Virus record (IMG/VR): IMGVR_UViG_3300047548_000541 | Span: 1-33,106 of that record | Direction: 5' to 3' (one strand) | Source of the DNA: a virus | DNA length: 33,106 nt | In this document: piece by piece, positions 4,310-30,185 of the stretch | Layout of the letters: the number at the start of each line of letters is the position of its first letter | Numbering within the stretch: position 1 is the stretch's first letter | Notes under the pieces: generated by a model | Seen by the model: the letters and a program-made list of their open reading frames with translations, nothing else | Told to the model about the DNA's origin: nothing | Databases searched by the model: none | Position numbers and translations under genes: made by a program

Positions 4310-7300
4310 TTAATCCCAAAACTCTGATCCGTAGAACACTTTAGCACTCCACTGAATTTTAATAGTAGTGCCTTGTCCATCTACACGTTTGAACTTGAGT
4401 TGACTCTCATTGTCTTGGTACCATAGCACAATGTTTTCTCCGTTGCTGCCGCCACTGAATACTTCAGTGTGGGCAACGTTTTCGTCGCCGCTGTCATTAA
4501 CGATGTGTATAGTCCCTACCATCGTACCAGCATTACCATCATAAGAATGATAGTCTATCACCGCGCCACGGAAATTGCTGCCGCCGCTTGGTAAATCATT
4601 CTTGTCCCACCATATAGCAGGTTCGCCGCCTGTTCTATATCTAAAGTAGATAGTATCGCCTTGATTATAATCAACTCTATTAGGGTAAACGCCAATACCC
4701 CATTCGTTTCCATCCCCAGAAATACTGCCGGAATAATCATACCAAGTGCTGTTATCTAGACTGAACTGTGCTACACCAGGAGATACTGCACTTTCCCAAA
4801 TACCATAACCAAAAGGATTGTTTAGTATATCATCTATAGTAGTTGCGGTAGTATCAATCCAAAATGTAATTTCGTTAGTACCAGCTCTTGATGCTGTAGC
4901 TGTAATTGTAGTATATTGCACTGGTAAAACTGTTACAGCCTTGTAACCGTAAGCTTCCTCAATCCTTCTATTACCTGGGCTTTCTAACTTTACACGACCT
5001 AACCCTTCTGCTGATTTCAAACGTGTTCCGTCAGGGAATCTAATTCCTTCTTCGAGACTATTAAGATTTAACTCTCTACGAATATAAGCAAATCCGCCGC
5101 CGTTGCTGTTTTGAGTCCAACTTGTAAACTTAACTGTGTAGTATTTGCCGTTATCTGGCAAATACATTACACATTCAGTACCAACAATTTTGTTGCCTAA
5201 TCCACCAGCAAATGTTTCGTATAATGGTGCATATGTTCTTGACTCAACAGTAGTAAGATCTGCCCAACCATCAATGTTCCATAATATTCCACCTGGGCTA
5301 ACGCTACTATTCCAACTTCCTTCCCTGTATGGATTGTATATACCTTGGTTGTTGCTTCTTGTAATGCCTACGCCGGCGCCATTGCCGTCATCAGGTATTA
5401 ATATATCAACTTCTGAACCCCCATCAGTTTTTGTGAAAGTTACTTCTGGCCCAGCATATGGTGTACCAATGACATTGAGGTGTGTAACGGCGTTAGTAAA
5501 TGTCTGTTCTGGAGAACCAGGATCATAAATGTAACCCGCTTCTGTAATACTACTACTATCTGCTCCACTATTTCCGCTTGTTTCTACATATGTTGCAGAA
5601 TTGTTTGTAGCAAAGAGTGCAAACATACTTGGTTGATAAGCAAAACTATAAACAGCGCCATTGCCAAATGCTGTTCCGTCTGTGACTGTATTACCACTAT
5701 TGTATGCAATTTCTTGAACGAAATTAGTGTTGATATAGTTAGCACCATCATACTGATCTGCGCCACCGTCACTGATATTATTATTTGGCCAAATTCCTAC
5801 TGGACGAGGTATTGTTCCGCTTATTGTATATGTGTTAATGCCACCACCGCCAACTACTGAGGTAACTGTGATTATTAAATCGTTAGCTGGACTAGCTAAA
5901 GCAACATTATTATCATCGTAAATGTCTGTGCCTAATATCTTAAAACGATCTCCAACATAATAACTATTACCGCTGTTCCAACTAGATAACTCGATAGTGT
6001 CGTTTGTTAAGTTGTAGTTTAAATTGTAAACATAAAACCCGTTACCAACTCTGTTATAACCAACTAATCCAGTCCAAGTATCATATGAATAAACGTATCC
6101 TGGTAGTTCTGGTTCTGCTGTAGCAGTTAACACGCCGCCATTCTCATCTACAGTTGAGACAGTTATTACAATGTTGTATCTACCATCGCTTGCGCCGTAT
6201 TCTGTATAATCAACAAGTATTTTATTTCCAAGAGCATAGCCTGTGCCTGCTGTTGTTGGTGTAACTGTCATGCCTTCTGCTGCGCTAACAACTGTGAATA
6301 CAAATCCGTTACCTAGCAGTTGGTTAACGGCGCTAACATTAAAGTATGTGTTAACGCTTAAGAAATCAAAGTTTGCATAAAGTCCGTTGGCAGCACTTGC
6401 TAAAGTTTGGTAGTTACTAGCAAAGGCTGCTTTCATCTCATCTACAGTATTAAATTGTCCTTCTACACCGCCGTCAAGTATTACATTATCAATTGCTGCC
6501 TCAGCAAATGCCTGTAATGTTGATAGACTCTTAGGTCCATTGACCTCACCATAAACAACAAACATTGCTAATACATCACTGTCAGCTAATCCACTAACAC
6601 GGAAATTGTCTTGACTGCTTGTTGGGTCTATTGTTACAGTTGCATTTGTTGGTTTATGAATAACAATCTTGTTAACATTATATTCATCAATGTTGCTGTT
6701 AGTGTGAATCATACCATAAGCAACTTGCAATCCTTTATAAGTTGTTGGAGCAACTCCTGGAATAGTAACGGTAGGTAATCCGCCTGTGCCATCACCATTG
6801 CCTGAAACTGGTTCTCCATTAACTATTAATGTTCCAGCATTGTCTACACTTATTGGCACACCGCCTAAGTAAATTGTACTGTTGCTTAGATACAAATCTT
6901 TCCACGGACGTTCTATAGAACCTAAACTAAACACTGGGGCCGGATCTGGAATTGGGAAATTTGCAGTGCCTGGCAACAAGTCTCCTGGAAAGAAAGTTTT
7001 ACCAGATGAGTCAAAAATAGTTTGATAAATTGTGCCGTTTGGAGCAGTAGTTAGATATCTGATGTCGTCAAAAGTCATAACAATCTGTAACTGACTATCT
7101 TCACTAGTAATTCTGCTACCAGCACTTGGTAAACGAAGTTCGCCATCGCCTAAGAATCTCCAAGCTCTACTTGGATCATTTTGCCATTGTGTTTGAATAA
7201 ATGGACCAGTATCATCAACACCAATAAAGCTGTTTAAATCGTGACTTGCTAATTCAACATAACTGTTTGCTGCTGCTCTAAAATCTAGACTGTGTTGTCC

Positions 7301-13995: not shown

Positions 13996-16656
13996 ATGAG
14001 TTACGTAGACGCTCTGTTTGACAGAGAACGAGATCGCATCCATATTGTGGAGCGAGTAAATGGCGAACGCCGTTACACAGATTATCCCGCCCAGTACATC
14101 TTTTATTATGATGACCCCAAGGGCAAATTCAAAACAATTTATGATACACCTGTAAGTAGGTTTAGTACACGCAACAATAAGGAGTTCCGTAAGGAACTTG
14201 CTATGCGTAAGGGAAAGACAACATGGGAAAGCGATATGAATCCTGTGTTCCGTTGTCTTGCAGAAAATTATTTAGGCAAGGATGCTCCAAAGTTACACGT
14301 AGCATTTTTCGACATCGAAACGGACTTCGATCCTGAAAAAGGTTTTAGTACACCCGAAGATCCGTTTACAAAGATTACTGCTATTACAGTTTACTTACAG
14401 TGGCTAGATCAGCTTGTCACACTTGCAATTCCACCAAATGGAATGAGCATGGAAAGTGCAAATGAGATTGGTGCAAAGTTTGATAACACATTCATGTTTG
14501 AAGAAGAAACAGACATGATGAAAACATTCCTCGATCTAATTGAGGACGCAGACGTGCTTAGTGGTTGGAACAGTGAAGGTTACGATATTCCATATTGTAT
14601 TAACCGCACTGCACGTATCCTAAGCAAAGATGATACACGTCGTTTTTGTTTATGGCAGCAAATGCCAAAAGGTCGTGAGTATGAAAAGTTTGGTGCAGTT
14701 CGCCAAACATTCGATCTAGTTGGTCGCATTCACGTTGACTATATGAACTTGTATCGCAAGTACACTTACGAAGAGCGCCACAGCTATTCTCTCGACGCTA
14801 TTGGTGATTACGAACTTGGTGAGCGTAAGGTTGTTTACGAAGGCAGCTTAGATGCACTGTACAACAAGGACTTTGAAAAGTTCATTGCGTATAACAGACA
14901 AGACGTTGCACTGCTTGGTAAGCTTGATGCAAAGCTTAAGTTTATGGATTTGTCTAACGTTCTCGCACATGAAAACACTGTGCTAATCCAAACAACTATG
15001 GGTGCAGTTGCACTAACAGAACAAGCTATCATTAACGAAGCACATAGTCTTGGATTAGTTGTACCTGATCGTAAGAATCATGGTGAGAACACACAAGCTG
15101 CCGGTGCATACGTTGCATATCCTAAAAAAGGATTGCATGAATGGATTGGCGCAATTGACATTAACTCGCTATACCCATCCGCAATTCGTGCGCTTAACAT
15201 GGCGCCAGAAAGCATTGTTGGTCAGCTAAGACCAATTATGACTGACAAATACATTACTAATAAAATGGAAAACGAAAAATGCAGTTTTGCAGAAGCGTGG
15301 GAAGGTTTGTTTGGTAGTTTAGAGTACACCGCAGTTATGGAACAAAAGCGTGGTGTAGAGATTACAATTGATTGGGCAGATGGCACTGAGGATGTGTTTA
15401 CTGGACACGAAGTCTTCAACATGATCTTTAAAAGCAATCAGCCATGGATTATGAGTGCAAACGGCACGATCTTTAGTTATGAACGTAAGGGCGTTGTACC
15501 AGGTCTGCTTGAACGTTGGTATGCAGAACGTAAAGTAATGCAGGCAAAGTTGAAGGAAGCTATCGCAGCAGGCGACAAGGAACAGATAGAGTTTTGGGAC
15601 AAGCGTCAGTTAGTTAAGAAGATTAACCTTAACTCACTTTACGGCGCAATCTTAAATCCAGGATGTCGTTTCTTTGACAAACGTATTGGTCAATCTACTA
15701 CACTAACTGGTCGTAGCATTGCTAAGCATATGGACAGTTATGTAAACGAATGTATTACTGGCAAGTATGATCACGTGGGTGACTCAATCATCTATGGTGA
15801 TACTGACTCTGTTTACTTTAGTGCGTGGCCTATTATCAAAGAAGATGTTGAAGCTGGTCGTATGGAATGGAACAAAGAGATTTGTGTACAGCTATATGAC
15901 AACATTGCAGATCAAGTTAATCAGAGCTTCCCAGCATTTATGGAGCAAGCATTCCATTGTCCACGTGAACTTGGCGCTATTATTAAAGGCGGTCGTGAAC
16001 TTGTTGCAAGTCGCGGTCTATACATTACTAAGAAGCGTTATGCAGTGCTTATCTATGATAAGGAAGGCAAGCGTCAAGATGTTGATGGTAAACCAGGCAA
16101 AGTAAAAGCTATGGGACTTGATCTTAAGCGTTCAGATACTCCAAAAGTAGTGCAGGACTTCTTAAGCAAGATTCTAATGGATGTGCTGTGTGGTGCAGAA
16201 GAGCGTGACATTCTAGATAAGATCGTTGCGTTCCGTGAGGAGTTTACTACACGACCTGCATGGGAAAAGGGTACACCAAAGCGTGTTAACAAGCTCACTT
16301 ACTATGGCGACATGGAAAAGAAGATGGGTAAATTCAATATGCCAGGTCACGTTAGGGCTGCACTAAATTGGAATACACTTAAGAAAATGTACAGCGACAA
16401 CTACAGTATTAAAATTACTGATGGCCAGAAAGTCATTGTATGTAAGCTTAAGGATAATCCAATTGGTTACACAAGCGTTGCATATCCTATTGATGAAAAC
16501 CATTTACCAGAATGGTTCTTAGATCTACCATTTGATCACAATGCAATGGAATCAACTATTGTTGATGGCAAAGTTGAAAACTTGCTTGGCGTACTCAACT
16601 GGAATCTAAGTAGCACAGTAGGTAATAACAATTCGTTTAATGCAATGTTTGGTTAA
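13996..16656 (+). CDS. 43: T4-type family B DNA polymerase (gp43)
   Basis: An 886-aa replicative polymerase, close to T4 gp43 (898 aa). Exonuclease motifs: FFDIETDFD (Asp106/Glu108), SGWNSEGYDIPY and YNRQDVALLGKLD. Polymerase motifs: DINSLYPSAIRALN (A), KKINLNSLYGAILNPG (B) and IYGDTDSVYFS (C). All catalytic carboxylates are present. The last residues, NNSFNAMFG, lie where T4-type polymerases carry the peptide that docks on the gp45 clamp; the same FNAMF occurs in DpdA. AGGAG lies 6 nt before the ATG, behind a candidate autoregulatory hairpin. Confidence 0.97.
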   Translation: MSYVDALFDRERDRIHIVERVNGERRYTDYPAQYIFYYDDPKGKFKTIYDTPVSRFSTRNNKEFRKELAMRKGKTTWESDMNPVFRCLAENYLGKDAPKLHVAFFDIETDFDPEKGFSTPEDPFTKITAITVYLQWLDQLVTLAIPPNGMSMESANEIGAKFDNTFMFEEETDMMKTFLDLIEDADVLSGWNSEGYDIPYCINRTARILSKDDTRRFCLWQQMPKGREYEKFGAVRQTFDLVGRIHVDYMNLYRKYTYEERHSYSLDAIGDYELGERKVVYEGSLDALYNKDFEKFIAYNRQDVALLGKLDAKLKFMDLSNVLAHENTVLIQTTMGAVALTEQAIINEAHSLGLVVPDRKNHGENTQAAGAYVAYPKKGLHEWIGAIDINSLYPSAIRALNMAPESIVGQLRPIMTDKYITNKMENEKCSFAEAWEGLFGSLEYTAVMEQKRGVEITIDWADGTEDVFTGHEVFNMIFKSNQPWIMSANGTIFSYERKGVVPGLLERWYAERKVMQAKLKEAIAAGDKEQIEFWDKRQLVKKINLNSLYGAILNPGCRFFDKRIGQSTTLTGRSIAKHMDSYVNECITGKYDHVGDSIIYGDTDSVYFSAWPIIKEDVEAGRMEWNKEICVQLYDNIADQVNQSFPAFMEQAFHCPRELGAIIKGGRELVASRGLYITKKRYAVLIYDKEGKRQDVDGKPGKVKAMGLDLKRSDTPKVVQDFLSKILMDVLCGAEERDILDKIVAFREEFTTRPAWEKGTPKRVNKLTYYGDMEKKMGKFNMPGHVRAALNWNTLKKMYSDNYSIKITDGQKVIVCKLKDNPIGYTSVAYPIDENHLPEWFLDLPFDHNAMESTIVDGKVENLLGVLNWNLSSTVGNNNSFNAMFG

Positions 16657-17731: not shown

Positions 17732-18463
17732 ATGAAAGACTATCTAATTGATATCGTTAAGCATACTGTTAGCCTCGGTTGTTTCGACAACCTTCGTGTT
17801 GACGGAACAGACAAGGAAACCAAGATCAGTTCAACTGAAAAGGAACGAACTGTTGTTCTACGTGCTAAGCTTCACGGTGTTATTCCAGAGTTTGAGGGAC
17901 TATTTGGTATTCCAAATCTTCCGCTACTCAGCACACTACTAAACATTCCTGAATATCAGGATGACGGTGCAAAGCTAACTGTTGATCGCAGAGCTGTTAA
18001 TAATGTTGAACAGCCAGTTAACATTAAATTTGAAAACGCAGCAGGCGACTTCAAGAACGAGTTCCGTTTGATGGCTTCAAACATTATTGAAAACATTGAA
18101 CCACTTCTAAAGTTCAACGTAACAAGCTGGCCATGCACATTTATCCCAACTGTTGCTGCACAGCAGCGTCTAAAGTATCAGACATCTGCACACCCAGAAG
18201 AGAAGGCTGTTACATTCCGTATTGAAAACGGTGATGTACGTGCAAGCATTGGTGATGGTTCTTCACACAATGGTAGCTTCGTATTCCATACTGGTGTTGA
18301 TAAGAAGGTTAAGGAAACTATTGTAGTACCAGTTCTCGTGGTAAATAGTGTACTAACACTCGCTGGTAATAAGACAATCCAGATGGGTGGACCAGGAATG
18401 ATGATTAGTGTTGATTCAGGTCTCGCTGGATACGACTATATCATTCCAATGCTTTCAAAGTAA
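17732..18463 (+). CDS. 45: Sliding clamp, gp45-like
   Basis: A 243-aa protein, slightly longer than T4 gp45 (228 aa). EFEGLFGIPNLPLLSTLL (residues 51-68) corresponds to the conserved DLNGFLGILSLV region of gp45. The rest alternates strands and short helices as in a two-domain clamp subunit, ending GLAGYDYIIPMLSK. Trimeric gp45 rings hold the polymerase on DNA and, in T4, activate late transcription. It has AGGA 6 nt before the ATG and its own promoter. The next gene, dpdA, follows after 10 nt. Sequence similarity is low, so the call rests on the motif, size and position near gene 43. Confidence 0.78.
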   Translation: MKDYLIDIVKHTVSLGCFDNLRVDGTDKETKISSTEKERTVVLRAKLHGVIPEFEGLFGIPNLPLLSTLLNIPEYQDDGAKLTVDRRAVNNVEQPVNIKFENAAGDFKNEFRLMASNIIENIEPLLKFNVTSWPCTFIPTVAAQQRLKYQTSAHPEEKAVTFRIENGDVRASIGDGSSHNGSFVFHTGVDKKVKETIVVPVLVVNSVLTLAGNKTIQMGGPGMMISVDSGLAGYDYIIPMLSK

Positions 18464-18473
18464 GGAGTACATT

Positions 18474-20225
18474 TTGGCAGAGCAATCTAACAAACAATCA
18501 AATCATGAGTTATATGAGTTTCAAAAGGGTAATGATTTAACACGCCCAAAACATGCAGTGTTTTTGCCTGCCATTTCTACTTTTTATAATACAGCAGTAA
18601 GCAGGCAGAGACATAACTCAAACTACGTTCCTAAAGAACGTATCCCAAAGAAGATGACACAAGGCGTTGAAGGTCTAAACTTTTTAGATCCTCAAAAGAG
18701 CATCTTCTATTACCCATGGGGATTGCATTCAGCAGGTCACGCACAATTGGATATTACACAAGTAGTACCAAAGGAAAGCATGATCCGTGATCGTCCCCGT
18801 GATGGTACTAGCTTTATGCTTGGTGACTCTGGGGGCTTCCAGATTGGTAAAGGTAAGTGGGAAGGCGAGTGGAGAGATCCAACTGGGCCAGAAGTAGCAG
18901 CGGAGATGGCACGTCAAGTTGCCAAAGGCGTTGATATGATTCCACTTATTGATCAAACTGGTAATCCAAAGACTGATCGTAATGGTAATCCAAAGTATAA
19001 GAAAGTTGATCACGCAAAAGTGTATCAAGCTAAACTTGATGCAGCACAAGCAAAGCGTAAGCAAGTTCTTAACTGGATGGATGCTTATATGGATTATGGC
19101 ATCATCTTAGATATTCCAGCATGGGTCAGTCGTAGCCCAGCAGGTATTGCTGCAACAGGTATTACTAGCTATCAAGAAGCTGTTAATGCAACCAAGTATA
19201 ACAATCAATTCTTCATTGAGAATAGAACTGGTGCTTGTAAGTTCCTCAACGTGCTACAGGGTGAAACACACGCTGATGCAGAGGACTGGTATCAGCAGAT
19301 GAAGGACTTCTGTGATCCAAAGAAGTATGACAAGCACTTTAATGGCTGGGCTATGGGTGGTCAGAATATGTGTGACATCCACTTAATCTTAAAGCGACTT
19401 GTTGCACTACATTTTGATGGACTTCTAGTAGAAGGCGTGCATGATTGGATGCACTTCTTAGGTACATCAAAGATGGAGTGGGCTGTACTGCTTACTGACT
19501 TACAAAATGCTGTACGCAAGTATTATAATCCAAACTTTACGATTAGCTTTGACTGTGCAAGTCCATTCCTCGCTAATGCTAATGGGTTGATCTACACAAC
19601 TATTCGTTTAGAGGATAGAGAAAAGTGGATCTATAAGATGGAACCCAGCATTGATAATCGAAAGTACAGCAGTGATACACGTACATTGCGTGATGGGTTA
19701 TTGCAAGAAAAGATTGTTCCAGAGTTTGAGGATAGTCCTGTATCAGAACTATTAGAAGTTAAGGATGTTTGTGTATATCCTCCAAACAAAGCAAACAAGA
19801 TGGGCGTTGTATCTAAGACAAGCTGGGATACTTTCAGCTATGCCTTGCAGATGGGACATAACACTTGGTTACACATCTTAGCTGTACAACGTGCTAACGA
19901 TGCTTATTATAATAAGGGAATGTTCCCAGCAATGCTTATTGATGAACGCTTTGAACGTGTAGTGTTTAGAGACATTATTGATAGCATTTTCTCAAAGACT
20001 GATCGTGCGGAAGCAGAAGCAGAAATTGATAAGTGGGATAAGTTCTATCTACGTATCATTGGTCAACGTGGTGCTGTTGGTAAGAAAACGCTTAATAGTA
20101 AGACTGGCTTTAATGCAATGTTTGATACACCAGAAGTATTAGTGGATGATAACGTTAGCATTGAAGATGAATACGAACTAGATCAAAACAAAGCAGACAA
20201 ACTCGACGAGGAAGATAATGATTAA
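18474..20225 (+). CDS. dpdA: DpdA-like DNA guanine transglycosylase (TGT fold)
   Basis: A 583-aa protein related to tRNA-guanine transglycosylases. GDSGGFQIGKG (117-127) matches the TGT DSGGFQ motif with Asp118. LNVLQGETHADAEDWY (258-273) and GWAMGGQN (291-298) match the base-binding loops, and SFDCASPFLANANGLIY (358-374) aligns with the nucleophile region (Asp360). DpdA enzymes exchange guanine in DNA for a 7-deazaguanine. The start is TTG 18474, with AAGGAG 6 nt upstream; upstream ATGs fall inside the clamp gene. FNAMF at 546-550 repeats the polymerase C-terminus and may bind the clamp. The tail after it is acidic. It overlaps the next gene by 8 nt. Confidence 0.88.
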   Translation: MAEQSNKQSNHELYEFQKGNDLTRPKHAVFLPAISTFYNTAVSRQRHNSNYVPKERIPKKMTQGVEGLNFLDPQKSIFYYPWGLHSAGHAQLDITQVVPKESMIRDRPRDGTSFMLGDSGGFQIGKGKWEGEWRDPTGPEVAAEMARQVAKGVDMIPLIDQTGNPKTDRNGNPKYKKVDHAKVYQAKLDAAQAKRKQVLNWMDAYMDYGIILDIPAWVSRSPAGIAATGITSYQEAVNATKYNNQFFIENRTGACKFLNVLQGETHADAEDWYQQMKDFCDPKKYDKHFNGWAMGGQNMCDIHLILKRLVALHFDGLLVEGVHDWMHFLGTSKMEWAVLLTDLQNAVRKYYNPNFTISFDCASPFLANANGLIYTTIRLEDREKWIYKMEPSIDNRKYSSDTRTLRDGLLQEKIVPEFEDSPVSELLEVKDVCVYPPNKANKMGVVSKTSWDTFSYALQMGHNTWLHILAVQRANDAYYNKGMFPAMLIDERFERVVFRDIIDSIFSKTDRAEAEAEIDKWDKFYLRIIGQRGAVGKKTLNSKTGFNAMFDTPEVLVDDNVSIEDEYELDQNKADKLDEEDND

Positions 20226-26099: not shown

Positions 26100-26774
26100 A
26101 TGAAAGTTTCAGAACAGATTCGCCAGCGCATCTTAGATGCAGGGGCAAGGTTTCATAGCAACGACAATATTGCAGAGTTCATTAATGATGGTGAACTAGA
26201 TGCACTAGTAAACGAAGTTGCAGAGCATTTTGAAAAAGTATTAGGCGCGCTAGTAATTGATACTGAGCATGACCACAATACACGGGATACTTCACGCCGT
26301 GTAGCTAAGATGTTTATTCTTGAAACATTTAATGGTCGTTATCGTCCAATACCAAAGGTAACAGCGTTCCCTAACATGGGATACAAGAGTCTTTATACTA
26401 CTGGACCTATTTCTATTCGCAGCACTTGCGCTCATCACTTTCAAAACATTGTTGGTCGTTGCTGGGTTGGTATTGTACCAGAAGATGAAGTAATTGGTCT
26501 AAGCAAGTTCAATCGCCTTGTGCATCACATTTGCGAACGTCCTCAGATTCAAGAGGAAATGACTACGCAGATTGCAGACGCACTTAAGAAGTATGCAAAG
26601 ACAGATAACATTGCAGTTCTTGTTAAAGCAGAACACCATTGCATGACAATGCGCGGTGTACGTGAACATGAAAGCGACATGACCACAGCTATTATGCTTG
26701 GTGCGTTTGATACTCATGCTCCACTTAAGAAGGAGTTCTATGACATTTGTTTGAGTATGAAGGGACATGGCTAA
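26100..26774 (+). CDS. folE: GTP cyclohydrolase I
   Basis: A 224-aa protein, the length of E. coli FolE. Zinc ligands are kept: Cys110 and His113 in STCAHHF, Cys181 in HHCMTMRGV. IGLSKFNRLV and ESDMTTAIMLGAF complete the family motifs. It converts GTP to 7,8-dihydroneopterin triphosphate, the first step of folate, queuosine and 7-deazaguanine DNA modification. The usual CEHH is CAHH here, a change of a conserved Glu. With queD, queE and dpdA in this window its job is probably deazaguanine supply. It overlaps the next gene by one base (TAATG). Confidence 0.96.
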   Translation: MKVSEQIRQRILDAGARFHSNDNIAEFINDGELDALVNEVAEHFEKVLGALVIDTEHDHNTRDTSRRVAKMFILETFNGRYRPIPKVTAFPNMGYKSLYTTGPISIRSTCAHHFQNIVGRCWVGIVPEDEVIGLSKFNRLVHHICERPQIQEEMTTQIADALKKYAKTDNIAVLVKAEHHCMTMRGVREHESDMTTAIMLGAFDTHAPLKKEFYDICLSMKGHG

Positions 26775-28480: not shown

Positions 28481-28981
28481 ATGGCAAATACACCTGTATC
28501 ATACAAGTACACATCAACAAAAGAATACGTTAATGCATTTCCATGTGCATATCGTCAGTGGCGTGCGGACAGTCACTGCAATTTAATCCATGGCTATAGC
28601 TTCTCTATGAAGTTTTACTTTGGCACTAATGATTTGGATGCTCGTAACTGGGCAGCAGACTATGGTGGTCTAAAGGAACTTAAGAAGATTTTGGAAGATC
28701 AGTTTGACCATACATTACTAGTAGCAGAAGATGATCCGGAGATCGAAACATTTAAGATGCTACAAGAAAAGAAAATGGCAAAACTTACTATCTTACCCAA
28801 GTTAGGTTGTGAAAGTTTGGCTGATATGCTTTACAAGTATATCAACAGCGTGTATATTCCTGACATGTGGGGACCAAGTGAAGCTGCTAGATTATGGTGT
28901 TATCGTGTTGAAGTTCGCGAAACCCAAGCCAACATGGCATATAGAGAAGGACATCGCGAATGGAACGAAGAATTGATTTAA
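28481..28981 (+). CDS. queD: QueD-like 6-carboxytetrahydropterin synthase, phage type
   Basis: A 166-aa T-fold protein. Cys33 in SHCNLIHGYSF fits the catalytic cysteine, FDHTLLVAEDDPE gives the conserved Asp-His (76-77), and WCYRVEVRETQ the substrate Glu. QueD turns dihydroneopterin triphosphate into 6-carboxytetrahydropterin. Of the three zinc-binding His residues in E. coli QueD, two are Tyr here (Tyr24 in FPCAYRQW and Tyr39 in HGY); only His37 remains. His32 next to the Cys may compensate. AAGGA precedes the ATG, and a pseudoknot lies in the leader. It overlaps the next gene by 22 nt. Confidence 0.85.
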   Translation: MANTPVSYKYTSTKEYVNAFPCAYRQWRADSHCNLIHGYSFSMKFYFGTNDLDARNWAADYGGLKELKKILEDQFDHTLLVAEDDPEIETFKMLQEKKMAKLTILPKLGCESLADMLYKYINSVYIPDMWGPSEAARLWCYRVEVRETQANMAYREGHREWNEELI

Positions 28982-29157: not shown

Positions 29158-29350
29158 TTACCCTAAGGATTTAGGTAACAATCGTTGGATTGTAGAAGTG
29201 CGTACACAGGGCGGGAGCGATGAACTATACATTGAACTCCCGCCCAGTGCGTTAAATCAAATGGGCTGGGATGCCGGCGACAAAATTGAATGGATCCAAC
29301 AAAAAGATGGATCATATATGCTAATGAAGGCAAATGATGAGCAAGATTAA
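29150..29350 (+). CDS. AbrB/MazE-like swapped-hairpin protein
   Basis: A 66-aa protein. LPPSALNQMGWDAGDKIEWI then DGSYMLMKA follows the AbrB/SpoVT DNA-binding pattern (L-P..al..lgw..GD.i.w....gs..l.k). Such domains bind DNA as dimers and often regulate transcription; in phages their targets are mostly unknown. It overlaps queE by 14 nt, so an effect on the queD-queE operon is a reasonable guess. Confidence 0.68.
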   Translation: MSNYPKDLGNNRWIVEVRTQGGSDELYIELPPSALNQMGWDAGDKIEWIQQKDGSYMLMKANDEQD

Positions 29351-30185
29351 AGTAGCAGAACTATTTTATAGTTTACAAGGAGAGGGACAATACATTGGAG
29401 TACCTTCCATATTTCTTAGGACTTTTGGCTGTAATTTTACTTGCGGCGGATTCGGCATGGCTAGGGGAGAAGTATCCAGGGAACGTGATCTCATTGACCC
29501 TAATAGTTACAGCAGCTACAGTGAGCTTCCTCTGGTTTCAACCGGTTGTGACAGTTATGCTAGTTGGGATCCTAAATTTAAGCATCTTAGTCCTGTATTG
29601 GAAGTTAGTTCTATCATTGAGAGATTCAAAGAACTCCTCCCAGGCGGAACGTTTGGACGAGACAAACACCTAATCATCACGGGTGGTGAACCTCTACTTG
29701 GTTGGCAGCGTTCTTATCCAGAGCTTATTGCAGCATGTATGGACATTGGGCTAACACATTTAACATTTGAAACAAATGGCACACAACCATTATCAGAGGA
29801 GTTGTGGGGTTTCCTTAACAGCAAGGCAGTGTGGCCTGGACTTGAGGTTACATTTAGTATCTCAGCCAAGCTACCATGCAGTGGCGAAGCTTGGGAAGAA
29901 GCTATTCGTCCTGATGTTGTTAAGAAGTACACTACAATTAAAGATCATCGAAGCTACTTTAAGTTTGTTGTTAGCACACAGCAAGATGTTGAGGATGCTA
30001 TGCGAGCAAAGAAGGAATACGAAGCTGCTGGTATTAACATTCCTGTGTATCTTATGCCTGTTGTCGGTGTTAATCATGTATATGAATTAAACGAGCGTCA
30101 GGTTGCAGACTTTTGTCGTGACAACGGGTTACGTTTTAGCCCACGTATTCAAGTGCCGCTATATAAGAATGCATGGGGCACATGA
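29337..30185 (+). CDS. queE: QueE-like 7-carboxy-7-deazaguanine synthase (radical SAM)
   Basis: A 282-aa protein. FYSLQGEGQYIGVPSIFLRT is the QueE N-terminus; GCNFTC gives Cys32 and Cys36, and GCDSYASWD gives the third cluster Cys (71), 34 residues further on. This differs from the common CxxxCxxC and Cx14CxxC patterns. ITGGEPLLGWQ and FETNGTQPL complete the radical SAM and substrate motifs. The product is CDG, made from 6-carboxytetrahydropterin. I chose ATG 29337 because AAGG lies 6 nt upstream; ATG 29334 is adjacent. A 92-aa open frame overlapping the 5' half is taken as a shadow. It overlaps the next gene by 4 nt. Confidence 0.93.
   Translation: MSKIKVAELFYSLQGEGQYIGVPSIFLRTFGCNFTCGGFGMARGEVSRERDLIDPNSYSSYSELPLVSTGCDSYASWDPKFKHLSPVLEVSSIIERFKELLPGGTFGRDKHLIITGGEPLLGWQRSYPELIAACMDIGLTHLTFETNGTQPLSEELWGFLNSKAVWPGLEVTFSISAKLPCSGEAWEEAIRPDVVKKYTTIKDHRSYFKFVVSTQQDVEDAMRAKKEYEAAGINIPVYLMPVVGVNHVYELNERQVADFCRDNGLRFSPRIQVPLYKNAWGT

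Follow-up and report, generated by a model that had tools for sequence, protein, structure and literature searches.

Gene content of the locus

The window, i.e., the whole stretch of 33,106 nucleotides analysed here (IMG/VR virus record IMGVR_UViG_3300047548_000541), encodes on its + strand a family-B DNA polymerase, a predicted sliding clamp, a putative DNA base-exchange enzyme (DpdA) and several genes of the preQ0 pathway. The polymerase is gene 43-like, 886 amino acids long (13996..16656, +; phrog_262, 5e-198; Pfam DNA_pol_B) and shares 42-50% identity with its counterparts in cultured jumbo phages. Its C-terminus carries the putative clamp-interacting peptide FNAMFG (16636..16653, +), of the same form as SLDFLFG in T4 gp43, where SLDFLF is the solved clamp-interacting peptide and occupies the pocket of the clamp as a helical turn (PMC12746103). 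The polymerases of relative loci that bear DpdA also end in a peptide of this clamp type. One viral contig of 235 kb (G001) encodes two family-B polymerases (L121:11482-14052 and L129:637-3294), one ending STLEDFFS and the other NTFQNLFEF; either the assembly is chimeric or this phage has two polymerases.

Further downstream lies the gene of a 243-amino-acid protein (17732..18463, +) that matched no annotated family, had no link to T4 gp45 by sequence (hhalign probability of 0.4%) and whose sequence profiles retrieved nothing from gp45 or the PDB. Because sequence profiles were fruitless, identification relied on fold matches of a 41% identical homologue modelled as part of a clamp-DpdA fusion (described below): the best 50 PDB matches of this homologue were all of the PCNA type, with a probability of 1.0 and E-values of about 1e-9 to 1e-8. 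On the fold of this modelled homologue, the window protein is a gp45-like clamp of predicted PCNA fold, and we do not claim orthology with gp45 by sequence. A homologous protein is encoded by the Pseudomonas phage PA5oct (YP_010679044.1, L109:388-1134; hhalign 7e-40), where it is labelled "structural protein"; relatives are mostly labelled "hypothetical", and that of PAC2 "proliferating cell nuclear antigen".

The clamp gene stops 10 nt upstream of the TTG start of dpdA at position 18474, which is preceded by AAGGAG. The sequence-only reading had likewise placed dpdA directly behind the clamp gene. The clamp gene is also found close upstream of dpdA in most relatives.

Identification of DpdA and of the preQ0 genes

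The product of dpdA (18474..20225, +; 583 amino acids) matched nothing in Pfam, PHROGs, NCBIfam or PADLOC, and its sequence profiles found nothing in the PDB and family libraries; its identity therefore also had to be sought among fold matches. A 61% identical homologue was modelled alone and compared with a library of viral structures, where it matched an annotated TGT of Motura (1.5e-7), R9TGF0 of nt-1, which is as long as DpdA2 (1.7e-5), A0A2I7SB39, a protein of 596 amino acids that has the length of the Vibrio phage 2.275.O DpdA relative, and a viral queuine transferase. Against the PDB, the same model gave weak barrel-type matches only and no TGT. In an alignment of 17 diverse DpdA members, the TGT motifs DSGGFQ, QG, GG, LG and FDC follow each other in this order, D118-SGGFQ and D360 (the aspartate of FDC) being invariant, and they align in order with nt-1 DpdA2 and, weakly, with E. 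coli TGT. The DpdA cores of L083, L104 and L108 are devoid of a segment of about 50 residues (residues about 138-190 of the window DpdA) that others carry after the DSGGFQ region and ahead of the helix that follows it.

Three preQ0 pathway genes are encoded downstream: GTP cyclohydrolase I (FolE; 26100..26774, +; Pfam GTP_cyclohydroI, 2e-45), QueD (28481..28981, +; phrog_2389, 4e-37) and QueE (29334..30185, +; phrog_2076, 5e-49). When 12 related contigs were searched, FolE was present in all 12 and QueD in 6, while QueC gave one weak partial match, in a single contig. A match to a curated profile is not required of the DpdA2-type group, since nt-1 DpdA2 was itself identified by context and HHpred (PMC6884629). 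Given the modelled fold, the order of motifs and the accompanying preQ0 genes, the DpdA label stands, and the window protein is considered a putative base-exchange enzyme of the TGT/DpdA2 type, with an activity presumed from this resemblance.

A peptide shared by the polymerase and DpdA

Beyond its core, DpdA ends in an acidic C-terminal tail (residues 536-583; 20079..20222, +) that is predicted to be disordered, the homologous tail having a pLDDT below 50 when DpdA is modelled alone. This tail contains the proposed clamp-interacting peptide FNAMFD (residues 546-551; 20109..20126, +). As the sequence-only reading had reported, KTGFNAMFD at residues 543-551 repeats the FNAMF of the polymerase C-terminus, NNSFNAMFG, and both copies are encoded by an identical 16-nt stretch; this proved exact upon re-examination. 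A scan of the window located TTTAATGCAATGTTTG at 16636-16651 and 20109-20124, both on the + strand, FNAMF itself being encoded by 16636-16650 at the polymerase end and by 20109-20123 in the DpdA tail. In the whole record, TTYAAYGCNATGTTY has no further copy beyond the polymerase end and dpdA.

The identity of the 16 nt, which the same reading had stressed, turned out to be incidental. Once the peptide is given, identical coding of both copies is expected with P=0.07, and the match is lost in relatives: of the 15 nt, 6-15 are common to the two motifs, with a median of about 9/15. Full identity over the 15 nt is confined to the window and L003, a 96% relative, so that the match at the DNA level does not count as a feature in its own right. 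A recombination or regulatory DNA element, with the peptide match as its by-product, could account for the 16 identical nt of the window and for the 15/15 nt of L003, but nearly all relatives match at fewer nucleotides and still keep the peptide, which leaves this explanation with hardly any credibility. Indeed, since codons drift while the peptide persists, a repeat at the DNA level was ruled out as the feature of interest.

At the protein level, the bare 5-mer match between the polymerase and DpdA is a modest coincidence that is unremarkable alone, some 5-mer being common to 17 of the 435 pairs of window proteins. A single match of this kind would not exclude chance; its conservation across tails does.

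Conservation and relocation of the motif in DpdA tails

Two scans of IMG/VR, together with the window, yielded 103 usable loci and 81 distinct DpdA tails. At most of these loci, the polymerase, clamp and dpdA genes belong to one cluster. Three such clusters are carried by contigs (L146, L147 and L148) that were binned as genomes of Pacearchaeota, Neomarinimicrobiota and Euryarchaeota and are probably mis-binned viral contigs.

The motif was recovered in all 81 tails, 74 times as [FY]xx[LMF]F and 7 times as a terminal (S/N)LFEF or SLFEL, compared to a mean of 1.6 strict motifs per 81 tails after shuffling (maximum 7), which rules out chance as its source. Each of the 74 tails has the strict motif exactly once, never in two strict copies. 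The general form, Phi-x-x-[L/M/F]-F with an acidic or small residue next to it, is that of the polymerase of the same phage. At its fourth residue, polymerase and DpdA also show a tendency to agree; this covariation was dropped as independent proof, as the M/M matches stem from one clade and only four pairs are independent.

Open reading frames ending in the motif designate only a few candidate clamp clients. A protein of 167 amino acids (L133:347-847; contig G002 20247-20747) ends NTFNQLFEYE, which closely resembles the polymerase peptide, and weakly matches the phage endonuclease family phrog_681, so that it is possibly a clamp-tethered nuclease. Another possible client, of 142 amino acids and with no family assigned, ends INSLFEGL and is encoded between dpdA and folE (L141:5023-5448; contig G002 184123-184548).

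The motif is internal in 61 of the 81 tails and located at the extreme C-terminus in the other 20. Within the internal class, it lies 9 residues after a G(T/Q)RGxxG anchor and its final F is invariant; past the GKKTxN stretch, the remainder of the tail is variable and acidic. On a tree of DpdA cores built without the tails, the location of the motif changes at least four times between internal and C-terminal. Six tails (L070, L103, L104 and the three marine contigs L146-L148) stop 1-3 residues past the final F of the motif. In L004, the DpdA core is 89% identical to that of the window and the tail is rewritten, ending SFNSMFGEK, with a polymerase ending SFNQMFG. Apparent decayed copies of the motif, SFNENM and GFNKIV (motif regions SFNENMEVIPPSE, GFNKIVEIIPPSN), precede the intact terminal one in this tail (about 6605-6851), which looks as if a tail duplication had shifted the motif. 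The comparison of tails in related phages suggested by the sequence-only reading thus shows that the motif is kept even where the tail was rebuilt or shortened. Judged on these comparisons, the motif is a movable unit, maintained independently of the surrounding tail; a short binding motif should behave in this way, whereas a structural element should not.

The motif extends to cultured and distant phages. In the Pseudomonas phage PA5oct, which has a DpdA of about 31% identity, the DpdA tail reads SFNSLFD, the polymerase ends FDSLFGW and the homologous clamp gene is located between the polymerase gene and dpdA. In the Vibrio phage 2.275.O, the last residues are NNTDLFDW in the polymerase and NNNDLFGW in DpdA, so that the two deviate alike from the usual form. 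The DpdA of the Sinorhizobium phage Phosso ends only VEGLF, and its gene is far from the clamp gene. In nt-1, the motif was looked for in the DpdA2 tail and found to be absent, although the nt-1 polymerase ends TLESFFG; the motif is therefore lineage-specific and not general to DpdA.

The motif might alternatively serve DpdA itself, in folding, in a dimer contact or in product release, and only resemble the polymerase peptide, a proposal consistent with the fixed distance to the conserved GKKTxNAxT stretch that 61 of the 81 tails keep. Yet the tail is predicted to be disordered, the motif moved to the C-terminus at least four times, truncations stop just past it, and in Vibrio phage 2.275.O the same alteration is shared by polymerase and DpdA, all of which makes such an intrinsic role very unlikely. 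Tethering of DpdA to the clamp by its peptide is, as far as comparative sequence analysis goes, strongly supported: the earlier proposal that DpdA rides on the clamp gains its main support from the presence of the motif in 81/81 tails, including rebuilt and truncated ones.

Structural modelling of the clamp with DpdA

In L052, clamp and dpdA are in one frame and separated by a single TAA, and they were modelled as a fusion in which the TAA was read as Ser; the model contains a single clamp subunit, and its joint consists of two artificial residues. The motif block reached a pLDDT of 59 with the clamp, which is low, versus 36-39 in DpdA modelled alone with the same homologues. A helix is predicted at the motif with and without the clamp, whereas the strand FEA that follows the motif helix is predicted only with it. 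Judged on pLDDT and secondary structure, the fusion model mildly favours docking.

The peptide could also bind another protein of the replisome, such as the clamp loader or the single-strand binding protein. This is highly improbable: the form of the peptide equals that of the T4 clamp-interacting peptide, and it is the clamp gene that lies directly upstream of dpdA in the window and, in most relatives, at a short distance upstream of it.

Proposed mechanism and comparison with known systems

The docking of the DpdA tail peptide on the clamp encoded upstream, with base exchange taking place on new DNA, is as a whole very likely in our opinion. FNAMFD would be the equivalent of the clamp-interacting peptide of the phage's own polymerase and would dock DpdA into a pocket of the PCNA-like clamp encoded by the adjacent upstream gene. 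The flexible acidic tail would then hold the base-exchange barrel near newly made double-stranded DNA, in which guanines would be swapped for 7-deazaguanine as clamps slide or stay behind the fork. We infer the physical docking, the enzymatic activity and the replication-coupled action of DpdA from the above comparisons and models, and modification of DNA behind the fork may reasonably be presumed.

Many DNA enzymes are tethered to a PCNA-fold ring by a short motif, the PIP box. The DpdA peptide differs from it by the absence of a conserved initial Q, and the phage clamp by the absence of a detectable sequence relation to PCNA. Closer likenesses are found in T4. The gp43 peptide SLDFLF is likewise of the form Phi-x-x-[L/M/F]-F at a flexible terminus (PMC12746103), whereas the copy in the window DpdA is borne by a base-exchange enzyme, the DpdA motif is often internal in the tail, and its FNAMF is identical to the copy of its own phage's polymerase. 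Similarly, gp55 and gp33 have hydrophobic and acidic terminal peptides that are interchangeable with that of gp43, behind divergent linkers, but they recruit RNA polymerase and do not modify DNA (PMC2988020).

The T4 alpha-glucosyltransferase offers a precedent for the binding of a DNA-hypermodifying enzyme to the sliding clamp: its contact with gp45 (Sommer 2004) was confirmed in PMC13216743, and modification right after replication was deduced from this contact (PMC6024577). The sequence-only reading did not name this precedent. For DpdA, no report of a link to a clamp was found in the literature searched, which lay mostly outside subscription journals. The T4 enzyme differs in being a glucosyltransferase acting on hydroxymethylcytosine, unrelated to TGT and without a terminal peptide. 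In its sequence (L149:325-1527), an internal FYQMFDF is the nearest look-alike of the clamp peptides. What is new here is the enzyme family: the proposed docking device is known from elsewhere, but it was not previously described for DpdA.

Docking on the clamp might have another purpose than modification of new DNA behind the fork, such as repair, late transcription or regulation of the polymerase by competition for the pocket. Indeed, the ligands of the T4 clamp include gp33, gp55, gp43 and the clamp loader, with interchangeable C-terminal motifs in gp43, gp55 and gp33 (PMC2988020), and the contact of the T4 alpha-glucosyltransferase with gp45 is not the main determinant of its share of modification, the dominance of alpha-glucosylation being decided more by expression (PMC13216743). 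On the other hand, DpdA is of the base-exchange type and encoded with preQ0 genes, and action on nascent DNA would be the simplest use of a tether; another purpose is thus possible but unlikely.

Among described enzymes, nt-1 DpdA2 shares the TGT-type fold, the order of motifs and the preQ0 genes encoded alongside, but it is 464 amino acids long, has no clamp motif in its tail and modifies its DNA sparsely (PMC6884629). Guanine replacement is about 0.1% in nt-1 and far higher in other phages such as Rosebush (PMC6884629). A clamp tether would explain how DpdA is recruited to genomic DNA and bears on these differing levels of guanine replacement, as tethered enzymes should, if the proposal is true, modify nascent DNA early and densely. 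In a large phage family, DpdA thus probably travels with the replication machinery and protects DNA during its synthesis. It is somewhat probable that large phages of a widespread lineage couple 7-deazaguanine exchange to replication by endowing DpdA with the clamp peptide of the polymerase, a solution reached independently of the T4 alpha-glucosyltransferase, whereby new DNA would be protected upon leaving the fork and its density of modification would be set by the occupancy of clamps. If so, replication-coupled hypermodification would be a recurrent strategy and not a peculiarity of T4.
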